Origin: Spirochaetae bacterium HGW-Spirochaetae-1 | GTDB lineage: Bacteria > Spirochaetota > UBA4802 > UBA5550 | Assembly (NCBI GenBank): GCA_002839375.1 | Contig: PGXY01000002.1 | Coordinates: 537,037-575,017, forward strand | Reading direction: 5' to 3' | Length of the DNA stretch: 37,981 nucleotides | Shown: positions 36,236-37,685 of the stretch, piece after piece | Numbering within the stretch: position 1 is the first letter of the stretch | Layout: every line of letters starts with the position of its first letter | The notes under the pieces: model-generated | Database searches by the model: none | Told to the model about the DNA's origin: nothing | The model's input: only the letters and a program-made list of their open reading frames with translations | Made by a program: the position numbers and the translations under genes

Positions 36236-36520
36236 TCATGCTTGTGCCGATGGCTGCTGATCTTTTTTGGGAAAACGGGGTTTCGCAAAATTTACACGGA
36301 TATTCCTTCCCATGATTTCATTGCCGTCAAGCTGTGCAATGGCTGTGTTTGCATCATTTTCACTGGCCATCTCAATAAAGCCGAACCCCTTGGATCTGCC
36401 GGTATACTTGTCTATGATGATCTTGGCAGATTTTACCTCTCCATGTGATTCGAAGAGATTTTTCAGCGAATCCTCTTTCATGTCATAGGACAGGTTTCCC
36501 GCATAGAGATTTACTGACAT
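36236..36520 (-). CDS. Single-RRM RNA-binding protein
   Basis: The 94-residue protein is one RNA recognition motif with a short basic tail. RNP2 is visible as LYAGNL (about 5-10) and RNP1 as RSKGFGFIEM (about 42-51, with aromatic residues on the central strand). Small bacterial RRM proteins of this kind bind single-stranded RNA and are often cold-induced. The ribosome site TGAGGT lies about 6 nt before the ATG. A strong promoter candidate, a leader of about 165 nt with inverted repeats, and its own terminator suggest a separately regulated monocistronic gene. Confidence 0.95.
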   Translation of the reverse strand: MSVNLYAGNLSYDMKEDSLKNLFESHGEVKSAKIIIDKYTGRSKGFGFIEMASENDANTAIAQLDGNEIMGRNIRVNFAKPRFPKKDQQPSAQA

Positions 36521-36549
36521 ACAAGTACCTCATAAAAATATGATTTTGT

Positions 36550-36639
36550 AACTTCTTTAAGGGGAAAAGCCGCTGTTGATATTTGTGTATAACGGGCTGA
36601 AGTGTGGTTGGTAATCCAGAATTTCTCGATAAAGAAGTT
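36550..36639 (-). promoter_or_regulatory. Long-range inverted repeat in the RRM-gene leader
   Basis: Perfect 10-nt arms (36550-36559 and 36630-36639) are separated by 70 nt. The downstream arm ends about 30 nt before the start codon and shortly before the ribosome site. Pairing would close a large leader loop and could control access to the ribosome site. Confidence 0.5.
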
Positions 36640-36658
36640 TTCTGAATGAAAGATCGGC

Positions 36659-36678
36659 GCATTTTAAAAGTGAAATGC
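36659..36678 (-). other. Stem-loop at the predicted 5' end of the RRM mRNA
   Basis: Arms 36659-36664 and 36673-36678 form a perfect 6-bp stem with an 8-nt loop, a few bases after the predicted transcription start near 36685. Such a 5' hairpin could protect the mRNA. Confidence 0.4.
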
Positions 36679-36691
36679 AAATATATAATAT

Positions 36692-36720
36692 CTTATAGTA
36701 AGACAGTAAGATAAAGTCAA
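36692..36720 (-). promoter_or_regulatory. Strong sigma-70 promoter candidate for the RRM gene
   Basis: On the minus strand TTGACT (36715-36720) and TATAAG (36692-36697) each match five of six consensus positions and are exactly 17 nt apart. This is the best promoter match I found in the window. Confidence 0.65.
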
Positions 36721-36728
36721 GAAAAAAA

Positions 36729-37685
36729 TTATTCCAGACCAGGCATATGAGTCATGAATGATTTTAAAAAACCTTCACTGTTGAAATCCGATTTTTCTTT
36801 GATAATGCCCCCGGCCATGTCGGCATGACCTCCGCCAAAACCGATCCCCCTGAGTACGTCCTGGATAATTTTAGACGCATTCCAATCCTGTCGCTCGCTC
36901 CGTACAGAGATGTTGATCTTGTCTTCATTGTCTGCACAAAGAATAACGAAATCAACCTCTTCGAGAGCCAGGATGAAATCCCCCAATATTCCCAGCAGGT
37001 TCTGATTGCACCCCTGGGGAAAATAACAAAAGGCAACACTTTGTTCAATTTTAAGATTGTCTATTGCGTATCGGTAAAAGTTCAGATCCTTTGTCTGTAT
37101 GTAGTTGCGCAGAAGGGAGTTCACCTGCGACACGTTAGCTGCGCTGTAGAGGTTGGCGTAAGCGTCGATATCATCCTCACTCACACCGCGGGTGAGAAGC
37201 GCAGTGTCCATGTTGATACCTATAAGCAGCACCGTTGCCGTGTCGCGATTTATCACAACATTACAATCACGAAAATATGAATAAATAATTGTTGAACATG
37301 CACCGTATCCCGGCCTGATGTCGATAAGCGGCACGTCTTCCGGCGAAATAACGTTGTGGTGGTCAATAACGGCAATTTCATCGCCTATGAGGTCCGTAAC
37401 GTTTTTGTTTCCCTTGCACCCGTCGACGATTACTATCCAGTCATCCTCTCTGAGTTCGTATTCCGATGCATTGCGGATATCAATGCCGAAATCGTTTATC
37501 ATTTTTTTAAGGGAGTCACGCTGCAATTCTCCCTCAAAAATTATCGATGTCCTTATGGCGAACTCCGAAAGGAGTTTCTGAAGTCCATATGCTGATGCCA
37601 CGGCATCATGATCAGGGAAATTGTGTGTCTGAATGTATATATGGTCTTTTGCTTTCAGGTGGTCTATGAGGTTTTGTATAAACAT
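36729..37685 (-). CDS. DHH-family phosphoesterase (NrnA-like)
   Basis: The 318-residue protein has the DHH domain with N-terminal D25-H26-D27 metal motif, VDGC near residue 90, and DHHN near residue 109 (motif III). A C-terminal DHHA1 domain ends with GFGGGHADMAGG (about 288-299). This is the plan of NrnA-type oligoribonuclease/pAp phosphatase enzymes, which clear short RNAs, pGpG or pAp. Other DHH/DHHA1 enzymes such as exopolyphosphatase-like proteins are possible. The ribosome site is not recognisable. It lies downstream of pntB but is separated by a terminator and a promoter candidate. Confidence 0.88.
   Translation of the reverse strand: MFIQNLIDHLKAKDHIYIQTHNFPDHDAVASAYGLQKLLSEFAIRTSIIFEGELQRDSLKKMINDFGIDIRNASEYELREDDWIVIVDGCKGNKNVTDLIGDEIAVIDHHNVISPEDVPLIDIRPGYGACSTIIYSYFRDCNVVINRDTATVLLIGINMDTALLTRGVSEDDIDAYANLYSAANVSQVNSLLRNYIQTKDLNFYRYAIDNLKIEQSVAFCYFPQGCNQNLLGILGDFILALEEVDFVILCADNEDKINISVRSERQDWNASKIIQDVLRGIGFGGGHADMAGGIIKEKSDFNSEGFLKSFMTHMPGLE

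Follow-up and report, generated by a model that had tools for sequence, protein, structure and literature searches.

The RRM gene and its distant promoter

In bacterial phyla without Hfq, ProQ or CsrA, RRM proteins are coming to be recognised as global RNA-binding regulators, yet to our knowledge hardly anything is known of how their own level is controlled. The locus described here raises that question, as a gene for a small RRM protein is preceded by a promoter that lies unusually far from its start codon. It lies within the window, by which we mean the whole 37,981-nucleotide stretch of DNA that was analysed, and the elements on which the question turns are as follows.

36236-36520, minus strand: RRM gene from the open reading frame list, with a product of 94 aa and a single RRM
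36715-36720, minus strand: -35 element TTGACT, read directly; TTGAC recurs in orthologous leaders
36692-36697, minus strand: -10 element TATAAG after a spacer of 17, the whole promoter having 10/12 consensus matches
36521-36684, minus strand: predicted 5' leader of ~164 nt, placed by the promoter position, with a putative start
36527-36531, minus strand: Shine-Dalgarno (SD) sequence GAGGT, read directly, with a counterpart in orthologues

The protein falls within the Pfam family RRM_1 (PF00076), scoring 80.7 bits against a curated cut-off of 20.7 (E=7e-23), and both of the characteristic motifs can be read directly, RNP2 as LYAGNL and RNP1 as KGFGFIEM. Among its nearest solved relatives are HuC/HuD/HuR, PUB1, PUF60 and Sex-lethal, all of them binders of poly(U), U-rich or AU-rich RNA. 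The source genome, of 5.2 Mb, has three RRM genes, besides which it encodes two cold-shock-domain proteins.

The promoter that the sequence-only reading had placed at 36692-36720 is indeed present on the minus strand as TTGACT-17-TATAAG, but the claim that no other in the window is better does not hold, for two sites reach 11/12 and about 30 reach at least 10/12. Its distance from the gene stands: transcription is predicted to start at ~36684, which we infer from the promoter position. The leader up to the ATG at 36520 would then be ~164 nt long, and on the same strand it contains no sigma-70-like site scoring 9/12 or more. The next gene upstream, on the same strand, encodes a DHH/DHHA1 phosphoesterase (36729-37685), and 8 nt separate its end from the -35 element.

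Repeats and folding of the leader

Two structures had been noticed in the leader, a terminal stem-loop and a perfect inverted repeat of 10 nt with a 70-nt loop, and both were recovered where they had been reported.

36659-36678, minus strand: 5' terminal stem-loop GCATTT-CACTTTTA-AAATGC, 6 bp with an 8-nt loop, from the minimum-energy fold
36630-36639, minus strand: 5' arm of the SD-proximal helix, AACTTCTTTA, from the repeat search and predicted fold
36550-36559, minus strand: 3' arm of the SD-proximal helix, TAAAGAAGTT, with the SD 18 nt downstream, from the repeat search and predicted fold

The inverted repeat formed by AACTTCTTTA and TAAAGAAGTT can be extended to 18 nt at 83% pairing. It goes only modestly beyond chance: of 300 shuffles that kept the dinucleotide content of the 165-nt leader, 5 also contained a perfect inverted repeat of at least 10 bp. 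Folding of the whole window leader gave z = -1.9, with 5 of 200 shuffles folding equally well, and the region from -120 to -18 gave z about -4 (-4.2 in the control comparison described below), for an interval that was picked after the folds had been seen. A blastn search of the window leader against the genomes of the family returned the source genome only.

A layout shared by related RRM leaders

Comparison was made across a set consisting of the window gene and 17 RRM genes related to it, all from the same order and with GAGGT as ribosome site, one of the 17 being a paralogue in the source genome (L001); a protein tree did not resolve the order of the 17. The leaders of these genes are 100-340 nt long and the distant promoter, as judged by promoter-like sequence, is kept in 17 of the 18. 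At a distance of 90-380 nt upstream a TTGAC is found in 17/18 leaders, and nearer in 0/18 (shuffles: mean 4.5, maximum 9), and in 14 of the 18 it is followed by a -10 element matching at least 4/6 positions (shuffles: mean 1.6, maximum 5). The upstream neighbours are often in divergent orientation to the RRM gene and vary from one genus to another, and for this reason the promoter can be taken to belong to the RRM gene itself. These sequence comparisons indicate that long leaders and far-upstream promoters have been conserved among these RRM genes.

A second conserved feature is found directly next to the ribosome site.

36532-36547, minus strand: U/AU-rich tract, AAAATCATATTTTTAT, immediately preceding the SD and of conserved composition; a candidate standby site for the RRM protein or the ribosome

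In the 16 nt before the SD, which itself appears as (T/C/A)GAGGT in the orthologues, the 18 orthologues average 87% A+T and 56% T, and the corresponding values for 50 intergenic genes used as controls are 63% and 35% (p about 1e-5 for A+T and 1e-4 for T); the controls were genes of the window and of other loci, with start codons predicted by simple rules, and the control set from the source genome itself was small. Folding of the region from -120 to -18 is also better in the orthologues, with a mean z of -1.63 as compared with -0.21 for 38 upstream regions serving as controls (p 6e-5), whereas whole orthologous leaders of 165 nt fold no better than controls (p 0.26). Predicted accessibility of the SD is 0.26 in the orthologues versus 0.38 in controls, and with a difference of only p 0.04 sequestration of the SD was rejected as a general principle. 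The motif U4-NN-TGAGGT was also tried as an RRM-specific signature; it occurs once in the source genome, at the RRM gene, but was set aside as it recurs before ATG codons in genomes of the family.

A covarying hairpin in a sister genus

The clearest structure is seen in six leaders of a sister genus (L011, L012, L013, L014, L017 and L019), each of which has a hairpin directly upstream of the U-tract. Its arms differ from species to species, being AATTATACC/GGTATAATT, AATTAATCC/GGATTAATT, AATTATTCC/GGAATAATT, AATCATTCC/GGAATGGTT, AAATAATCC/GGGTTATTT and CATCC/GGATG. With the register set by hand and anchored at the loop, pairing holds in 50 of 54 cells and double-sided changes occur in five of the nine pairs, while registers slid along the arms pair at most 26 cells; an arm generally pairs better with its own partner than with one swapped in from another species. 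Two leaders from two other genera, L005 and L009, have hairpins at the equivalent place, and they share with the sister genus a convergent downstream neighbour gene, which apparently encodes a siroheme-synthase-like protein.

The outcome for the covariation that the sequence-only reading had proposed to look for in orthologous leaders is divided: the hairpin at the corresponding place covaries in the sister genus in the hand-set register, but RNAalifold on a sequence-only MAFFT alignment of the sister-genus hairpin found no consensus structure. The window helix corresponds to this hairpin in position only, its loop of 70 nt being much larger than those of the sister genus. Because the distant promoter is conserved and the sister-genus hairpin covaries, the leader is supported as a cis-acting RNA, and that part of the earlier proposal of an undescribed cis-regulatory RNA can be retained.

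The sister-genus leaders have further features of their own, among them conserved blocks of sequence towards the 5' end. Farther upstream, L011, L012, L014, L017 and L019 have conserved G-runs (GGGGATTGGGGATT) and a GCAGATTTCCCCCCC block, and these can pair with each other. The heptamer GTTCTTT stands directly after the predicted transcription start in L011, L012, L014 and L019, some 300 nt before the ATG, and is also seen in L110 and L128. It resembles the boxA of these organisms' own rRNA leaders (AGCTCTTTGAAAACTG / AGTTCTTTGAAAACTG), and on long RRM leaders it may possibly be an antitermination element. A boxA near the 5' end was set aside, as GTTCTTT is lacking in the window and the heptamer matches the organism's own rRNA boxA (ATAGCTCTTTGAAAACTG) only in part.

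A model of autoregulation and its alternatives

The leader most likely lets the RRM protein, or the conditions of the cell, control how much RRM protein is produced. The best reading, to which we would give a probability of roughly 0.4, is that the gene has its own promoter and a module of helix, U-tract, SD and ATG through which the RRM protein regulates its own translation. Transcription from the promoter at 36720-36692 would yield a leader of ~164 nt, and the working module would lie beside the start codon, made up of the helix (36639-36630/36559-36550), the U/AU-rich tract (36547-36532), the GAGGT and the ATG. The helix would leave the U-rich tract single-stranded and exposed next to the SD; when abundant the RRM protein would bind the tract and keep ribosomes off, and would thereby limit its own synthesis. 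Transcription as predicted, binding of the protein to the leader and translational repression by that binding are all three things that we infer. If true, such a module, conserved and adjoining the start codon, would provide an operator open to direct testing.

Autogenous control is suggested because the layout of hairpin, U-tract and SD adjoins the gene for a probable U/AU-rich binder, and the conserved tract together with analogy to known systems makes autogenous translational repression plausible. The nearest analogue is RbpB of Bacteroides thetaiotaomicron, likewise a single-RRM protein, for which a preference for AU-rich sequence around ribosome sites and a binding site on its own mRNA are reported, implying autoregulation (PMC11697453). 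The passages on RbpB describe no long structured leader module, and binding by the window protein would be presumed from the likeness. Autogenous operators such as ribosomal-protein leaders and Csr/RsmA-type sites similarly place a hairpin and a single-stranded protein site by the SD of the gene for that protein; the proteins there are of families other than RRM, and in the window binding and repression would be assumed by comparison. The autoregulatory side of the earlier proposal accordingly gains in plausibility from the U-tract, from the U/AU-binding RRM relatives and from RbpB.

The same module might be read as a constitutive aid to translation, with the U-tract acting as a standby site or enhancer for the ribosome (S1) and the hairpin merely keeping the tract open or guarding the 5' side of the mRNA against decay, with neither sensing nor feedback. 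To place AU- or U-rich sequence ahead of the SD is a general way of raising initiation, a hairpin fixed in position and variable in sequence would suit a spacer or protective role, and the SD accessibility of the orthologues barely differs from that of controls. It leaves unexplained, however, why leaders of 100-340 nt with a far-upstream promoter should be found in 17 of 18 genes and why the 5' blocks of the sister-genus leaders are conserved, and we regard it as rather unlikely. Less probable again is that the leader is a plain long 5' UTR whose inverted repeat and terminal stem-loop arose by chance in an AT-rich intergenic region. The 10-nt repeat does turn up in shuffles of the leader (5/300), the terminal stem-loop is a mere 6 bp and the leader sequence is absent from other genomes of the family; against this the orthologous leaders as a group fold better at the same place, the sister-genus hairpin covaries, and both the promoter distance and the U-tract are conserved.

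The sequence-only reading had also suggested a cold-shock leader like that of cspA or a thermosensor, in which refolding with temperature would control access to the SD or the stability of the mRNA. What speaks for it is that a long leader precedes a gene for a small RNA-binding protein, as in cspA-type leaders, and that cyanobacterial class I RRM genes have conserved cold-response boxes in their 5' UTR, with Rbp1 needed for cold adaptability (PMC9333190). Those rbp genes encode a single-RRM protein of similar size and their long 5' UTR has conserved elements, but the window has neither their conserved blocks nor a downstream rpsU, and a cold response here would be by analogy; when the blocks shared by five RRM-gene leaders from cyanobacterial plasmids were compared with the window leader only chance matches of 9-10 nt were found. 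With the Rfam covariance models, including cspA, ROSE and fourU, nothing in the window reached the gathering score and nothing in 36480-36760 matched up to E=5, and the window protein is an RRM rather than a cold-shock domain. Folding of the leader with 40 nt of the gene predicts an SD that is mostly paired, with a probability of being unpaired that rises from 0.01 at 10 C to 0.18 at 45 C, yet this opening is small and gradual and its direction varies among the orthologues when folded over 10-45 C. Separate cold-shock-domain proteins are present in the source genome and its relatives, for which reason the idea that the RRM protein replaces a cold-shock protein was rejected. With no Rfam match, no cyanobacterial cold boxes and no convincing temperature switch, and with two cold-shock-domain proteins in the genome, the cold or thermosensor part of the earlier proposal is unsupported and would seem improbable.

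It is harder still to credit that a translated leader frame opens the start region by translational coupling. There is a frame on the minus strand at 36662-36483, with an ATG at -142, also a TTG at -160, and an end at +38 inside the RRM gene; counted from the ATG it runs for 59 codons without a stop, crossing all of the leader and overlapping the start of the RRM gene. It has no SD and nothing in its sequence suggests a real protein, and as the frame is not conserved in the orthologues a leader peptide was rejected.

RRM leaders elsewhere in the phylum

The autoregulatory reading can be widened, more tentatively and with some doubt, to the proposal that RRM genes of this class share an undescribed autoregulatory element of hairpin, U-tract and GAGGT, in which layout and pairing would be kept while the hairpin sequence is free to turn over, and that other families of the phylum may reach the same end through elements of their own. 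In those other families the RRM genes are without the U-tract and have lineage-specific leaders, several of them structured; Rfam searches of these leaders gave nothing relevant. Such diversity would offer material for studying the turnover of autoregulatory RNA sites across a phylum.

One genus of the phylum has a 16S nearest to that of Treponema saccharophilum among plasmid-borne 16S records (82%, the next record at 76%), by which the phylum would be Spirochaetota. Treponema-like genomes have a conserved leader in which TTCAGATTACGGTATTCAGAAAACGCAGATTGCAGCTGGCATCAGCA is followed by a G+C hairpin at the SD. Matches to it were found in 10 of 145 genomes, one in each, and in all nine for which both positions are known the match is at the RRM gene; a single match per genome at that gene is as expected for a cis element, and from its sequence the Treponema-like RRM leader is a candidate RNA family. 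RNAalifold on a MAFFT alignment of the Treponema-like leaders gave one hairpin of 4 bp with zero double changes. In L108-L111, L113-L115 and L121 this leader is ~150 nt long and has strongly conserved blocks, including GCAGCTGGCATCAGCA, and in L119 its small hairpin shows a compensatory change from T-A to A-T.

Other arrangements place pairing around the SD itself. In L130-L133 a GTTGGCA that stands upstream of the SD is paired across the start codon with TGCCAAC, leaving the SD in the loop, and this arrangement is identical in four species. Another family has GAGAA-GGAAT-TTTCTC around the SD, and in L117, L118 and L120, where the leader is very short, the SD is masked by a ATTCCTTGC/GCAAGGAAT hairpin.
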